A stretch of 64,000 nt of DNA. Origin: Pirellula sp. SH-Sr6A (GTDB lineage Bacteria; Planctomycetota; Planctomycetia; Pirellulales; Pirellulaceae). The DNA lies in contig NZ_CP011272.1 of assembly GCF_001610875.1 (NCBI RefSeq), positions 3,329,988-3,393,987 on the forward strand. The letters are read 5' to 3'. The notes under the pieces were generated by a model, which did no database searches, had not been told where the DNA came from, and saw nothing but the letters and a program-made list of their open reading frames with translations. This document shows, one piece after another, positions 53,136 to 57,827 of this stretch (the stretch's first letter is position 1; the number at the start of each line of letters is the position of its first letter). The position numbers and the translations under genes were made by a program.

Positions 53136-54528
53136 TGGATAGCTGAGGATCGTCGATTCGGACGCGATACAAGATTTGATTGTAGTCGTAGCGCGGCGTC
53201 CTCTCCGGCTTGTTCGCAAACTCAGCCGTATAGGTGCCTTCCAAGTAGACCCAAGGCTGATCATCTCGAAGCCATTCGCTGTGGATGATCGGATTGTAGA
53301 ACGTGTAATTGCTATGCGTGACGATAGGGACTGCTGGAGTCCACTCTCCGAACGGCGAGTCTGCCGTGCTCATCCAGATTTCTCCTAGCGGCGACGCTTT
53401 GCCGAACAGCTGGGTGAATACCATCACCCACTTTTTCGCATAGCCGCTCCAAGCGATATCGCCTCGATGGATCTGAATCGTGCTTCCGTCGCGGGAGCGA
53501 ATCGCATCAAGCTTGGGATGAACCTGCCACTTCACTGGGTCGAACCAATCTTCGTACGTATCACGGATCTGGATTCGAGGTGTCGGATTAGAGAAGAGAA
53601 TCCAATCCTGTCCAGAGGCGTCGCGGTATCGAACGGCATGCCCGTCCGGTACAGCGACTTGTTCGGGATCGGTGGTCTCGCTCGCGCCTCGCTTCCAAAG
53701 TGTTTTGACGGCGCGAAAGACACGATCGACTTCATTCCACTCACAAAGTCCGAACTCCTCGATGTCCATCGGTGCTCGAATCTTCGCGTAGCTGGCGACC
53801 AAATGTTCTATCCCGTTGCGGTCTTTCAAACCGATTAGGCCGCCTAGCCAAACCGGGCCTGGATGTTCGATATCCGCAATCGGTCGCAATGTGTTCGTTG
53901 GATCTCGAAAGAACTCGAGTTGGGGTTGAAGCGGCATCTTTTCCAAGTCGAACGGATGCAACTCCGATTCGGCTCCCAGCATTCGAAAGATACCAAGGGG
54001 ATATCGGAACAAGTTGGTATCCCCCCAGAACCAAAACAGCTTTCCTTTCCAAATGGTTGTTTGGACCGAGTCGCAACCCACGACGCCGCTCTCGTTCCAG
54101 TCGGTGTATTCCCCGATTTTCTGACTCTCGGCGAGAAGTCCGCTGCCGGTCAGTCGGCCGATCCGCTCGGCGGCCAAGGCACGCTTCAATCGAACGGGGT
54201 GGGTCGTCCCGCGGGTGGGCGTCAACCGAACTCCTTGGAAACCGAAGCCATCGCGGGGGACATCGTAACCGTGCCCCACTACCGAAAACCAGATCTCTCG
54301 ATCGAACAGTTCCGGAGCGTCGATAACTGCTTTTCCTGCATTGTCCGTGATCCACTTCATCCCTGACGTAGTCCGAAACTCGATCAGTGGAACAGGGCGT
54401 CCATTTTCTTCGTCGATCGCTTCGATCACAAATGCGTCATGGGGCGATGCGAATGCAATGTTCGTAGCGAGAACGAGCGTGGAAACGAGAGACAGAAAAC
54501 GTGATATAACAAAACAGGAAGGCCGCAT
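53116..54528 (-). CDS. Exported DUF4185-like propeller protein
   Basis: The 470-residue protein has a signal peptide (about 1-27), then a transthyretin-like domain (VIEAIDEENGRPVPLIEFRT, carboxypeptidase-regulatory type) and a five-bladed-propeller-like region (WKGKLFWFWGDTN, then WLGGLIGLKDRNG and the late GEIWMSTADSPFGEW and PIIHSEW). The last part resembles DUF4185 or GH43-like folds. No catalytic residue set could be placed. The ATG at 54528 is chosen because the signal starts there; earlier in-frame starts give non-coding-like sequence. It diverges from the small coiled-coil gene and converges with the DUF11 gene, overlapping it by 20 bases. Confidence 0.68.
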   Translation of the reverse strand: MRPSCFVISRFLSLVSTLVLATNIAFASPHDAFVIEAIDEENGRPVPLIEFRTTSGMKWITDNAGKAVIDAPELFDREIWFSVVGHGYDVPRDGFGFQGVRLTPTRGTTHPVRLKRALAAERIGRLTGSGLLAESQKIGEYTDWNESGVVGCDSVQTTIWKGKLFWFWGDTNLFRYPLGIFRMLGAESELHPFDLEKMPLQPQLEFFRDPTNTLRPIADIEHPGPVWLGGLIGLKDRNGIEHLVASYAKIRAPMDIEEFGLCEWNEVDRVFRAVKTLWKRGASETTDPEQVAVPDGHAVRYRDASGQDWILFSNPTPRIQIRDTYEDWFDPVKWQVHPKLDAIRSRDGSTIQIHRGDIAWSGYAKKWVMVFTQLFGKASPLGEIWMSTADSPFGEWTPAVPIVTHSNYTFYNPIIHSEWLRDDQPWVYLEGTYTAEFANKPERTPRYDYNQILYRVRIDDPQLSTIEPKR

Positions 54529-54564
54529 GTCGAAGATTTTGTTTCGAAACAAGGAGAGCATGAG

Positions 54565-54831
54565 ATGACCGAAAGCCATCAGTCTACCTTCGAAAAGCTC
54601 CTCACGGAGCTTGCTCATCAGCGCGATGAATTGCGATTGAAGATCCATTTGGGAAATATGGAGGCCAAAGAGCAACTAGGGAAGCTTGAAGAAAGGCTCT
54701 TCGAGTTGAGGCAGCGCTATGCGCCGACCAAGGAAGCGATCGACGAAACGGCCGAGGAGGTTTGGGAATCGCTCAAGTCGGTTGGAGGCGAAATCTTGGA
54801 AGGGTTCCACCGCATCCGAAAGTCCTTGTAG
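54565..54831 (+). CDS. Small coiled-coil protein of unknown function
   Basis: The 88-residue protein is all-helical and highly charged, with heptad-like spacing (residues 8-50, FEKLLTELAHQRDELRLKIH). The second half, EEVWESLKSVGGEILEGF, looks amphipathic. I recognise it as a small planctomycete family with no assigned role; a stress or chaperone-like function is a guess. An AAGGAG ribosome site lies 8 bases before the ATG at 54565. The REP-like island begins 15 bases after its stop. Confidence 0.6.
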   Translation: MTESHQSTFEKLLTELAHQRDELRLKIHLGNMEAKEQLGKLEERLFELRQRYAPTKEAIDETAEEVWESLKSVGGEILEGFHRIRKSL

Positions 54832-54845
54832 TGCGAATGCGTTGT

Positions 54846-55032
54846 TGAGATACCTCAAGGCGATCCTAAACGGTCGAGGACGACCGTTCGACATCCCCCG
54901 TCAAGCAGTCGTCCTCGACTGCTTCAGCACGCTAAACCACCGCCCCAACAACAAGAAAACCAAAAACCCTTCGAGCTTAGCGACTTTCAGATACCTCAAG
55001 GCGATCCTGAACGGTCGAGGACGACCGTTCGA
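54846..55032. repeat. Left block of a REP-like palindrome island (A1-B1-spacer-A2)
   Basis: Two copies of hairpin A, AACGGTCG-AGGA-CGACCGTT (54869-54888 and 55009-55030, the second one pair longer), flank hairpin B, AAGCAGTCG-TCCT-CGACTGCTT (54903-54924). An 84-base spacer separates B from the second A. Each A is preceded by GATACCTCAAGGCGATCCT. The central core of A, GTCGAGGACGAC, is the reverse complement of the core of B, so A and B are inverted versions of one element. Confidence 0.85.
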
Positions 55033-55075
55033 CGGGAGCCTCAACAGTTCTGGATCGCCTAGCCCCACATCAAGG

Positions 55076-55198
55076 AATTCTGTGAAGCGCTATATTGCCA
55101 ATCAGGAAGAACATCACAAAACGAAGTCGAGTCTTGATGAGTTTGTCGAGATGCTGGAAGCATCAGGCATTCCATACGATCGCAAGTATCTCGACTAG
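55076..55198 (+). pseudogene. Remnant: C-terminus of a REP-associated Y1 transposase
   Basis: A 41-codon fragment ending in a stop reads RYIANQEEHHKTKSSLDEF then VEMLEASGIPYDRKYLD. This is the typical C-terminal tail of Y1 (IS200-like, RAYT) transposases, where RYI-NQE-HH, EF and Y(D)-KYL recur. The catalytic Tyr and HUH motif would lie upstream, but that part is replaced by the hairpin block. No full-length copy is in the window. The remnant sits between hairpin blocks, as RAYT genes do with their REP elements. Confidence 0.72.
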
Positions 55199-55200
55199 GT

Positions 55201-55390
55201 GCGCGATGAGGCGTGGGGCTGGCATCCCGTCGGGATGCATTGACTATGAAATCCACCGGGGGTGTCGCTCGCGCTCAACCCCCGGCTAATCGCTTAAGTC
55301 CTTTCAGGACAAAAGAGAGGAATGGTCGAAGATTGTCGATCTGTTGTCCTCAACAGATCAGCATCGCCTGACGCATTGCGCCAGGTGAGA
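55201..55390. repeat. Middle of the island: five unrelated-looking palindromes
   Basis: In order: GCATCCCG-T-CGGGATGC (55222-55238); CCGGGGGT/ACCCCCGG (55256-55285) around a GC-rich loop; GTCCT/AGGAC (55298-55310); GATCTGTTG-TCCT-CAACAGATC (55338-55359), a perfect 9-bp stem with the same TCCT loop as hairpin B; and CCTG-A-CGC/GCG-C-CAGG (55367-55385). The CCGGGGG-type palindrome resembles intergenic repeats I recall from planctomycete genomes. No gene is present. Confidence 0.75.
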
Positions 55391-55403
55391 ATCTGCCCCA
55401 GAC

Positions 55404-55740
55404 ATCCCCCGTCAAGCAGTCGTCCTCAACTGCTTCAGCATCCTAGACCACCGTCCTAAAAGCAAGAAAACCAAAAACCCTTGGGGCTTAGTAACTTTTA
55501 GATGCCTCAAGGCGATCCTAAACGGTCGAGGACGACCGTTCGACAACCCGTCAAGCAGTCGTCCTCAACTGCTTCAGCATCCTAGACCACCGTCCTAAAA
55601 GCAAGAAAACCAAAAACCCTTGGGGCTTTGTAACTTTTAGATACCTCAAGGCGATCCTAAACGGTCGAGGACGACCGTTCGACATTGAACTTTTAGACAC
55701 CTTAACACGGTTGCTGAACGGTCGGGTCGACCGTTCGGCA
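55404..55740. repeat. Right block of the REP-like island (B2-spacer-A3-B3-spacer-A4-A5)
   Basis: Hairpin B recurs at 55414-55435 and 55553-55574, both with the loop-side base changed (CAAC instead of CGAC). Hairpin A recurs at 55521-55540 and 55660-55679. The B-to-A spacer is again 85 bases in both cases and is nearly identical to that of the left block, so the period is about 139-141 bases. A diverged fifth hairpin, GAACGGTCG-GGT-CGACCGTTC (55716-55736), closes the block 17 bases from the DUF1080 stop. Confidence 0.85.
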
Positions 55741-55752
55741 GCGAGGGGCAGA

Positions 55753-57681
55753 CTATTCCTTCGATTCGAATTTGAAGATGCATTGTTCGCGGTTGGTGTC
55801 CATCATGTAATAGACCTCTCCGCTCTCATCTTCCCCGAACGCTAAGACGGGAACGCCTCCTTCGATGATCTGCTCGTTGCGCGTCGCTTTGCCGCTCTTG
55901 GCATCATAGGACAAGGCCCAAAGCGCACCGCTCACATAGTCAGCGTACAAGTATTTGCCTTGCAAAGCCGGAAGCCGCTTGGTGTTGGAAACCCGTCCGC
56001 CGGTGATCGATTTCCCGATCGCGTGGTCGTATTCCCAAATCGGATCGATCGGCGTCGAAGTTCCTTCGACCACGGGCCGATTGCCAAAAGGATGGGTTCC
56101 CTCCCAATTGCTCCAGCCATAGTTCCCACCCTTGACCACAATATCGACTTCTTCATAGAGATCTTGCCCGACATCGGAGCACCAAAGTGTTCCGGTCGCT
56201 TTGTCAAACGCGATTCGCCATGGGTTGCGGAATCCGTGGGCATAGATCTCAGGTCGAAGCCCCGTTTGACCTGCGAAGGGATTGTCCGCTGGGATTCCAT
56301 AGGCAAGCCCATCGCTTTTCTTGTTCACATCAATTCGAAGAATCGAACCGAGCAATTGTTTGCGATTCTGGCCCGATGCCTTCGGATCGTTGCGCAAACC
56401 TCCGTCACCGAATGCGACGTACAGGTATCCGTCAGGTCCGAATTCAATCGCACCACCATTGTGATTCTTGTAAGGTTGCTCCAACTCCAGAAGGATCTCT
56501 TCGGAGCCTGCATCTCCCTTGAGCAGATCATCACCCTTCGCCTTGAATCGCGAGACGACGGACTTGTCGTCCGATTTGCGGGTGTAGCAGACGTAGAACT
56601 CTTTGTTCTCATTGTAATTGGGATGGAAAGCCAGCCCCAAGAGCCCTTGCTCGTTTGCACCAGGCCCGGCCCAGTAGCTCACCTTGTCTTGGATATCGAG
56701 GTAGAGCGAAGCCTGCTTCGTGTCGGTTTTGTTCTCGAAGGTGAAGATGCGGCCTTTTTGATCCATGGCGAACAAGCGATGGGCCAATCCCTTGGCGTAG
56801 GTCAACTCGAGGATGCGAAGCGGTTTGTTGATCGTTCCATCCTCTTCGACAGGGGTCCAGCCTTCCCACTTCATTTGCGGAAAAGCCGGGACGCCTTTCA
56901 CAGAGAGTTTTCCATCGATCGGTTGAGGAGGTTGTCCCTTTTCAGGCAGCTCTCGGATCTTGATATTGCGGAACGATACAAGGTTCCCGTGGTCTTGAAG
57001 GCAAATGTGGCCTTCGCCAGTCTTACCAAAGTCAGCCATCTGAGCGAATTTGCTTTTGGCAACCCGATCGTTCCAATCTTTGTCGCCCAACTTGAAGTGA
57101 TAGTAGACAGCGCCGTTCATGGAGACTTCGCACTGGTTCGGAGCGATGCGAAGGTAAAGCTGGTTCCATTCCCCAACCGGTCGAGTTACGTCGAGAGGTG
57201 CTGTTTCTCCAAGGGCGCGATTGGCAGGAGGCTGGTAGAGTTGGTAAAGCCAACCCGATTTCTGCGGGTCATGTCCCTTTGCGTTGTCTTGGATCTGGAT
57301 TTCGGGTCCGCTTTGCCAAGGAGCTCCGTTCTTCTCGTTGACATGGAACATCAAACCGCTGTTCCCTTCCTCGGAGATCTTGTATTCGAGCATCAACTCA
57401 AAGTGCTTGTACTTTTCTTTGGTGACGATATCGCCCGCATTGGATCCTTCTCGAACCAAGGCCCCGTCGACCACTTTCCAGCCGCTCGAGATTTCATCCT
57501 TCTTGTAATTTCGCCATTGGTCGGTCGACTTGCCATCGAAGAGAAGTTTCCAACCGCTCAACTCTTCGGAACGGGTCAACTGATTGGCAGGGATTTCCGC
57601 GAGCGAGACCGAAACGGGCAGGAAGGTAAGAGAGCTAATCACGGCGAGACGAAGAAGGCCGCGCAGGTTGCGACGAAGCAT
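55753..57681 (-). CDS. Exported DUF1080 domain fused to a sorbosone-dehydrogenase-like propeller
   Basis: The 642-residue protein has a signal peptide (about 1-29), a DUF1080 (3-keto-disaccharide hydrolase) sandwich in the first 250 residues (WKLLFDGKSTDQWRNY, MFHVNEKNGAPWQSGPE, NDRVAKSKFAQMADFG), then a beta-propeller of the glucose/sorbosone dehydrogenase type (GLLGLAFHPNY, AFGDGGLRNDP, NPWRIAFDKATGTLWCSDVGQ). The family of the second part oxidises sugars with PQQ or acts as a binder. The combination suggests that both steps act on one released sugar. The ATG at 57681 starts the signal peptide. Confidence 0.88.
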   Translation of the reverse strand: MLRRNLRGLLRLAVISSLTFLPVSVSLAEIPANQLTRSEELSGWKLLFDGKSTDQWRNYKKDEISSGWKVVDGALVREGSNAGDIVTKEKYKHFELMLEYKISEEGNSGLMFHVNEKNGAPWQSGPEIQIQDNAKGHDPQKSGWLYQLYQPPANRALGETAPLDVTRPVGEWNQLYLRIAPNQCEVSMNGAVYYHFKLGDKDWNDRVAKSKFAQMADFGKTGEGHICLQDHGNLVSFRNIKIRELPEKGQPPQPIDGKLSVKGVPAFPQMKWEGWTPVEEDGTINKPLRILELTYAKGLAHRLFAMDQKGRIFTFENKTDTKQASLYLDIQDKVSYWAGPGANEQGLLGLAFHPNYNENKEFYVCYTRKSDDKSVVSRFKAKGDDLLKGDAGSEEILLELEQPYKNHNGGAIEFGPDGYLYVAFGDGGLRNDPKASGQNRKQLLGSILRIDVNKKSDGLAYGIPADNPFAGQTGLRPEIYAHGFRNPWRIAFDKATGTLWCSDVGQDLYEEVDIVVKGGNYGWSNWEGTHPFGNRPVVEGTSTPIDPIWEYDHAIGKSITGGRVSNTKRLPALQGKYLYADYVSGALWALSYDAKSGKATRNEQIIEGGVPVLAFGEDESGEVYYMMDTNREQCIFKFESKE

Positions 57682-57827
57682 GGAGGGGATCCCTTTACGA
57701 GGTGGATGAACGCCAGATGACAATCTGAGAACGAAAACAACCCCTCGATGCTAAACGCCAAGGTACCTGCGGTCAATCAGACTCGTAGGCACAGCCGCGG
57801 AGATCCCGTGAATTTACATACCGGATA

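Follow-up and report, generated by a model that had tools for sequence, protein, structure and literature searches.

The window, by which we mean the whole stretch of 64,000 nucleotides analyzed here, contains an island of short palindromes in the 921-base intergenic gap between an ORF of 88 amino acids and a gene of 656 amino acids. Hairpins of types A and B, inverted relative to each other, run across positions 54869 to 55736. Read from the left, the order is <A >B <A >C >B <A >B <A, plus a degenerate fifth A, so that the island consists of four A, one degenerate A, three B, and one C hairpin. Its features and neighbors are the following.

54565-54831, forward strand: 88-aa ORF, left neighbor, 95% conserved in the sister species (G026)
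54869-54888, reverse strand: hairpin A1, loop TCCT on the reverse strand; foot TGTC to the right of the right arm, one base away
54903-54924, forward strand: hairpin B1, foot CGTC at 54899-54902, exact core
54925-55008, no strand: conserved 84-nt spacer B1-A2; most of it, folded alone, gave nothing
55009-55030, reverse strand: hairpin A2, foot CGTC on the reverse strand
55079-55195, forward strand: remnant of an IS200-type TnpA, C-terminal 39 residues, signature YIANQEEHH
55338-55359, forward strand: hairpin C with the GATCTGTTG stem, foot TGTC at 55334-55337; the commonest type in the genome stretches examined
55414-55435, forward strand: hairpin B2, one stem mismatch, foot CGTC
55436-55520, no strand: conserved spacer B2-A3, a B-to-A interval
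55521-55540, reverse strand: hairpin A3, foot TGTC
55553-55574, forward strand: hairpin B3, one stem mismatch, foot CGTC
55575-55659, no strand: conserved spacer B3-A4, a B-to-A interval
55660-55679, reverse strand: hairpin A4, foot TGTC
55716-55736, reverse strand: degenerate fifth A, 3-base loop ACC, foot TGCC, 16 nt past the stop of the 656-aa gene
55753-57723, reverse strand: 656-aa gene, right neighbor, convergent with the 88-aa ORF

Read on the strand that carries the TCCT loop, hairpin A is [C/T]GTC-GAACGGTCG-TCCT-CGACCGTT, hairpin B is CGTC-AAGCAGTCG-TCCT-CGACTGCTT, and hairpin C is TGTC-GATCTGTTG-TCCT-CAACAGATC. The eight hairpins that are not degenerate have a YGTC foot, an 8- to 9-bp stem, and a TCCT loop in common, with one mismatch in two of the B copies. 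An earlier note on this DNA had described five A and three B hairpins on one 12-base core. Four A copies and B1 do carry it exactly, but the fifth A has a shortened loop and a changed foot, and B2 and B3 each depart from it at one stem position. The note was correct that A and B are mutually inverted, with 84 to 85 nt from the B stem to the next A stem: wherever A comes before B, their tags face each other, and the spacer separates their other sides. Its composite module of about 140 bases exists as a 138-nt unit in three copies (88% and 99% identical with the reference; spacing, 511 and 139), distributed over two blocks with about 371 bases between them, but this is one local form, and other spacings are commoner in the genome. 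The note counted only two hairpin types and overlooked both hairpin C and the TnpA fragment, which lie between the blocks.

Folding of the copies, a check that the same note had proposed, showed that the hairpins fold better than shuffled sequences in six stretches (z, -3.2 to -6.3), whereas one spacer did not (z, +0.7). Uninterrupted stems of at least 7 bp with a TCCT/AGGA loop occur six times in the 64 kb, all six within the island. A looser detector that requires 7 of 9 stem positions to be paired found 17 hairpins in the same 64 kb, eight of them in the island; the YGTC foot is present in 8/8 of these and in 0/9 outside.

The TnpA remnant has matches at E ≤ 0.001 in 22 of 59 other genomes, mostly within open frames of 150 to 230 residues. 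There is no second close match in its own genome, where the next best is an intact TnpA (E, 0.14). Its YIANQEEHH fits Y...Q..HH, the signature of subclass 1.2 (PMC6006769). A 159-aa ORF that runs through the hairpins (54719-55198) had no family match above cut-off. Separately, positions 55206 to 55310 form a second repeat-like stretch (GGCATCCCGTCGGGATGC, CAACCCCCGGCTA, GTCCTTTCAGGAC); comparable sequence comes after some C hairpins at other places, so a further family of palindromic repeats may be interspersed there.

Hairpins of the same family across the genome

We searched the source genome, which is complete (6,534,136 bases). Hairpin A has 43 exact copies and 72 with up to two mismatches, and the reversed control has none; the 12-base core occurs 80 times, against 5 for its reversed control. 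A pattern covering A, B, and C gave 195 matches (reversed control, 0), which excludes the possibility, raised in the earlier note, that the module occurs only here. The genome stretches that we examined closely contain 184 of these 195 copies, of which 171 begin their stem with G; tails are of the kind AGGATCGCC.

We then used a detector that relies on loop and stem alone (TCCT loop, 7 of 9 stem positions paired). It picked 249 loop hairpins in the examined stretches; 34 with other stems, 3 of which have a GTC foot, were set aside, leaving 215. The foot of these 215 is GTC in 200, GTA in 5, GTT in 4, GTG in 3, and TTC in 3, and the base preceding GTC is T or C in 197, so that 197/215 hairpins have YGTC. 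Theirs is therefore not the GTAG (or GTGG) foot of the GTAG REP superfamily. The foot stays constant while the stems vary (118 C, 43 A, and others). Those with GTN feet, 212 in all, group into 32 clusters in the examined stretches, each of 1 to 17 hairpins.

Close pairs stand tag to tag, with 2 to 7 nt between the feet in 37 of 39. Partners are exchanged among pairs: A occurs with B, A with C, and C alone. The earlier inference that the module "was spread as a unit" is thus partly supported: the tag-to-tag arrangement recurs, but with varying partners. Spacings between hairpins of the same type and strand are mostly 161, 170, 151, and 162; the 139 to 141 of the window is a minor form, and spacings of 148 to 170 are commoner than that of the ~140-base module.

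Gene context was surveyed for 24 of the 32 clusters (160 hairpins), with mechanically called ORFs of at least 180 aa taken as neighbors. Outside such ORFs lie 138 of the 160 hairpins, and 22 lie inside. Among the 20 clusters with two such neighbors, 12 are between convergent genes, 7 between genes in the same direction, and 1, the RAYT site described below, between divergent genes. The cluster of the window was scored as same-direction, its 88-aa neighbor being below the size limit, and is convergent once that ORF is included. In the broad sense of REP/BIME (REPIN), then, the family is a dispersed, mainly extragenic palindrome with inverted pairing and tandem arrays.

Three side observations concern other repeats. 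The minor stem types GAACCGTCG and GAGCCGTCG have a GTA foot in 5 of 6 examined copies (L046, L047, L053, and L036; G000, about 242, 1701, 260, and 1690 kb) and are perhaps relics of an older GTAG family. Short tandem GGTTCTT units lie between hairpins with GTA and GTC feet at L047:2935-2985. At L034:3700-5000, several TAGTCCCGGTAGGGACG-like palindromes occur near an intact IS200-type TnpA gene, possibly a second REP-like system.

A RAYT-type gene within arrays of the hairpins

A search of the source genome for Y1 transposases returned three genes. One of these is a RAYT-type ORF of 236 aa (1680501-1681212) that has arrays of hairpin C and of altered hairpin A to either side of it. As in REP/BIME systems, a RAYT is flanked here by the same hairpins, and we assign it as cognate by position only. 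Of the 184 examined hairpins, 89 lie within 150 kb of it, compared with 9.0 expected for 195 evenly spread copies. The 9-kb stretches surrounding the other two Y1 genes contain no such hairpins.

The protein scores 24 bits against Pfam Y1_Tnp (cut-off, 23) and 53.6 bits (E, 2.2e-14) against NCBIfam NF047646, the REP-associated tyrosine transposase model, which is below the cut-off of 80. In the PDB it matches a single entry, 4ER8 (E. coli TnpA-REP; E, 0.0025). It has NHVH at 151 and YIRENP at 212 and therefore both the HUH motif and the catalytic Tyr (Y...NP). The Trp-Gln that precedes the conserved DH is absent: a K is aligned to Q95 of E. coli TnpA-REP, giving WK instead of WQ. Another RAYT-like gene, located at 1,925 kb, reaches 63.6 bits against the NCBIfam RAYT model and is without A, B, or C hairpins around it. 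Since this gene scores higher but lacks the hairpins, the choice of the 236-aa RAYT as partner is one of position. Some clusters are millions of bases from it, so an older source is possible. Two other RAYT genes of equal identity, one in the same genus (L065) and one probably in it (L096), have the same flanking hairpins.

The same sites in a sister species and other relatives

The search of relatives and the comparison of copy number and position, also proposed in the earlier note, set the family in a wider frame. A 20-base piece of hairpin A with the GTC foot (up to two mismatches) was found in 3 of 60 genomes: 71 times in the source genome, 54 times in G026, and once in G015. Of 50 hairpins in G026, taken from stretches picked by a pattern with GTC in it, 42 carry a GTC foot. 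A search of this G026 assembly, a draft that is 82% complete, returned no RAYT homologue, though the hairpins are present.

At the window site of G026 (L285; flanks 76 to 82% identical) the gap is 204 bases, compared with 921 in the window. It holds three copies, the first with a GTG foot and the third imperfectly paired, and no B hairpin, no C hairpin, and no TnpA fragment. Both sides of a ten-hairpin cluster at about 930 kb match one G026 contig, with two copies in the gap. On contig 385, clusters of 14 and 5 hairpins in our genome (gaps of 1,314 and 598) stand against hairpin-free gaps of 253 and 270, one anchor of this comparison being only 100 bases long. The sister species thus has three copies at the site of the window and none at two others. 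For a third cluster of the source genome, a 3.9-kb stretch is replaced by 375 bases in G026; because the 3.9 kb include an ORF as well, we do not count this as a clean empty site. The remaining matches between hairpin stretches of the two genomes are one-sided or short. Evidence on pair mobility is confined to these site differences between species.

The C-terminal end of the 656-aa gene was recovered in 24 of 25 further members of the genus. Within 1,000 bases downstream of it, none of the 24 has a GTC-foot TCCT hairpin or the 88-aa ORF; with that ORF not found, the sites may not correspond. GTAG hairpins with TCCC or TCC loops lie just downstream of the homologue of the 656-aa gene at L261 (G015) and L265 (G014), where the island would be expected by position.

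Feet across RAYT relatives

RAYT homologues were found in 37 of 60 genomes, our own included, and in 51 of 297 at a stricter E of 1e-30. Among the matches listed in a further search, 80 named RAYT loci were kept of 270. The 182 RAYT loci, minus 11 repeats, gave 171 distinct genes that we examined for a foot, accepting one when at least three hairpins were present with 70% agreement, on both sides, and considering GTNG only. By this rule 82 of the 171 genes have a consistent GTNG foot on both sides, and 89 do not. The feet of the 82 were initially GTAG in 44, GTCG in 19, GTGG in 15, and GTTG in 4. Two loci were re-read by hand to C, L208 (from T, wrong strand) and L241 (from G, overlapping tags; a debatable case), after which the counts are 44, 21, 14, and 3, respectively.

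We placed 77 of these genes on a tree, leaving out five rows without a recognized HUH motif. GTCG requires at least 5 changes on it, 4 of them forced by well-supported branches, against a shuffled mean of 17.9. All four feet together require 17 changes versus 32.7 for shuffled labels; the feet therefore follow RAYT lineages, with several switches. In two cases the switch occurs on a common hairpin stem: the sister RAYTs L104 (GTTG) and L226 (GTAG) have CGAGTCAC, and L064 (GTAG) and L069 (GTCG) have GAGCAGTTG. The RAYT at L069:1450-2300 (G002) is frameshifted and still flanked by GTC-foot hairpins plus one GTAG copy.

In Marinomonas, there appears to be pairing between the foot and the cut site, and a GTGG foot allowed cutting at CC (PMC8266576). 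If foot positions 3 and 4 select the cut site in this way, one expects CT next to hairpins with a GTAG foot, CC with GTGG, CG with GTCG, and CA with GTTG. The predicted dinucleotide was above its mean by 0.046 to 0.063 in the 3' tail, and 76 to 221 of 5000 label shuffles were as high, depending on which of four window lengths was used. On the 5' side the excess was 0.011 to 0.026, with 843 to 1691 of 5000 shuffles as high over five lengths. These shuffles used the labels from before the re-reading of L208 and L241 and ignored kinship. CG occurs within the first 10 nt of 0.86 of GTCG-foot tails, against 0.57 to 0.69 elsewhere; CT is not enriched in the first 10 nt of GTAG-foot tails (0.43 versus 0.41 to 0.69). 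This amounts to weak evidence for the guide model.

A mutual-information scan of RAYT residues against the foot (44 of 110 loci labeled) gave nothing convincing, its top columns being variable and gappy. The residue after the conserved Trp is Q in 39/39 aligned GTAG RAYTs and something else in 7 of 36 others (Fisher, 0.004). All seven Q changes are in non-A rows, and a sign test controlled for kinship was too small to reach 0.05. Since 29 of the 36 non-A RAYTs retain Q, its loss is not required for a non-A foot. We accordingly rejected a single-residue code. These data give weak support to the ideas that cleavage is redirected by the foot or that the residue after the Trp reads it.

Discussion

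We observed hairpins with a near-invariant YGTC foot, inverted pairing, genome-wide copies, an association with a RAYT array, and site differences between species. The earlier note had likened the island to REP/BIME elements, and its reading is borne out by the inverted pairs throughout the genome, the RAYT-type gene inside such an array, and the differences at corresponding sites of the sister species. Very probably, then, we are dealing with an array of the BIME/REPIN type, in which REPs have piled up locally and serve as substrates for a RAYT (TnpA-REP), a single-stranded DNA HUH nuclease encoded 1.7 Mb away within an array of the same hairpins.

Other origins can be weighed against this one. 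Duplication in tandem of a palindrome that arose here by chance, without a family elsewhere in the genome, would suit the 138-nt copies, which are 88 to 100% alike and include two in tandem; the 32 clusters and 195 genome-wide matches refute it, related hairpins are present in the sister species, and we give this reading next to no chance. CRISPR was ruled out on the form of the array, the repeats being inverted pairs and the spacers alike. The TnpA remnant between the two module blocks would fit hairpins that are the ends or miniature derivatives of an IS200/IS605-type element. That origin is highly unlikely, given that the 9 kb surrounding an intact IS200-type TnpA (G000:C1, about 864,140-864,590) contain none of these hairpins, in contrast to the RAYT embedded in A/C-type hairpins. 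The remnant itself stands without close kin in the genome, and we saw no intact small TnpA bounded by A, B, or C hairpins in the examined stretches.

The hairpins might instead be RNA elements maintained by the host, terminators or stabilizers of 3' ends repeated by chance, with an incidental link to RAYT. Convergent genes flank 12 of the 20 assignable clusters, and in the window a hairpin begins just past the stop of the 656-aa gene, as such a role would have it. Yet a terminator scan of 54500 to 56100 returned two sites (2.9 expected), which lie within spacers and do not coincide with any A, B, or C hairpin; this led us to reject intrinsic terminators, and Rfam had no match at E ≤ 1 in 54500 to 56000. 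The foot is kept while the stems vary, and hairpins flank RAYT genes on both sides at 82 of 171 loci. We consider an RNA origin quite unlikely; RNA use may be a by-product of the hairpins.

That REP/BIME arrays occur together with a RAYT is well known; what varies here is the GTC foot beside a RAYT. In the BIMEs and REPINs of E. coli and Pseudomonas fluorescens, the RAYT gene lies beside a cluster of its own REPs (PMC3116915, PMC8266576). The planctomycete system resembles this arrangement, or REPtron, in its short inverted-pair palindromes, many extragenic copies, tandem arrays, and RAYT beside its own REPs. It differs in the foot, which is GTC and not GTAG or GTGG, in the facing of the tags at 2 to 7 nt, and in the long RAYT (236 aa) with WK instead of WQ.

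The foot recalls the CGTC-tagged REP superfamily of Di Nocera et al. (2013), for which the available text reports no association with transposase genes (PMC3733652). Our hairpins agree with it in the Y-GTC tag (CGTC or TGTC) directly before an 8- to 9-bp stem, a 4-base loop (4 to 5 in the superfamily), dimers, and heterodimers, bearing in mind that they were preselected for TCCT loop and pairing. Unlike that superfamily, they flank a RAYT. In CGTC REPs, moreover, the stem opens with two AT pairs and the tail is mostly CCA (PMC3733652), whereas the first stem base in the planctomycete is G in most copies and the tails differ. The Results of that paper, in the text available, place CGTC REPs in five phyla, planctomycetes not among them, while its abstract and discussion more loosely assign both superfamilies to deep phyla including Planctomycetes (PMC3733652). 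GTAG REP families are listed there for Rhodopirellula baltica and Opitutus terrae, one O. terrae family being mostly GTGG, and GTMG (A or C) is given as a degenerate foot in some GTAG families (PMC3733652). Those REPs are likewise tagged short palindromes of PVC bacteria but belong to the GTAG superfamily. A program search for REPs used GTAG or GTGG, with atypical structures found by hand for two groups (PMC6006769). In the literature that we searched, supplements and figures aside, we came across no account of REPs that combine a GTC foot with a RAYT, and the available text of a paper on bacterial satellites held nothing on planctomycete palindromes.

Work on REPs of E. coli, Stenotrophomonas, and Marinomonas indicates how a BIME/REPIN-type array of this kind could arise. 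There the nuclease acts on single-stranded REP, and foot and hairpin are needed to differing degrees (PMC8266576). By analogy, the same foot-guided action on single-stranded DNA may take place here, with C at foot position 3. The RAYT would bind the folded strand via foot, stem, and loop and cut next to the hairpin; inverted pairs would be copied by it to new intergenic sites, and arrays would then grow in place through recombination or slippage. The third base of the foot, C here instead of the usual A, is inherited with the RAYT lineage. Arrays persist mostly at the 3' ends of genes, where insertions are presumably least harmful, and any benefit to the host would be secondary. In Stenotrophomonas, a change of the third base (GTTG) abolished cutting (PMC8266576); where GTC or GTTG feet occur naturally, an enzyme adapted to them is therefore implied.

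A broader proposal is possible, though we hold it doubtful at present: the third base of the foot may be an evolving address. RAYT lineages would have switched among A, G, C, and T, the cut site would have followed by base-pairing from CT to CC, CG, or CA, and the conserved Gln (Q95 in E. coli) would have been lost in some switched lineages. On this view, the "orphan" CGTC REPs would be RAYT substrates with a GTC foot and not a separate superfamily. The pairs L064/L069 and L104/L226 are natural single-base tests of this proposal of foot-guided cleavage. Whether CGTC and GTAG REPs are related, and which enzyme moves the CGTC REPs, are questions that Di Nocera et al. did not settle (PMC3733652); the genome studied here provides a RAYT seated among YGTC-tagged REPs.
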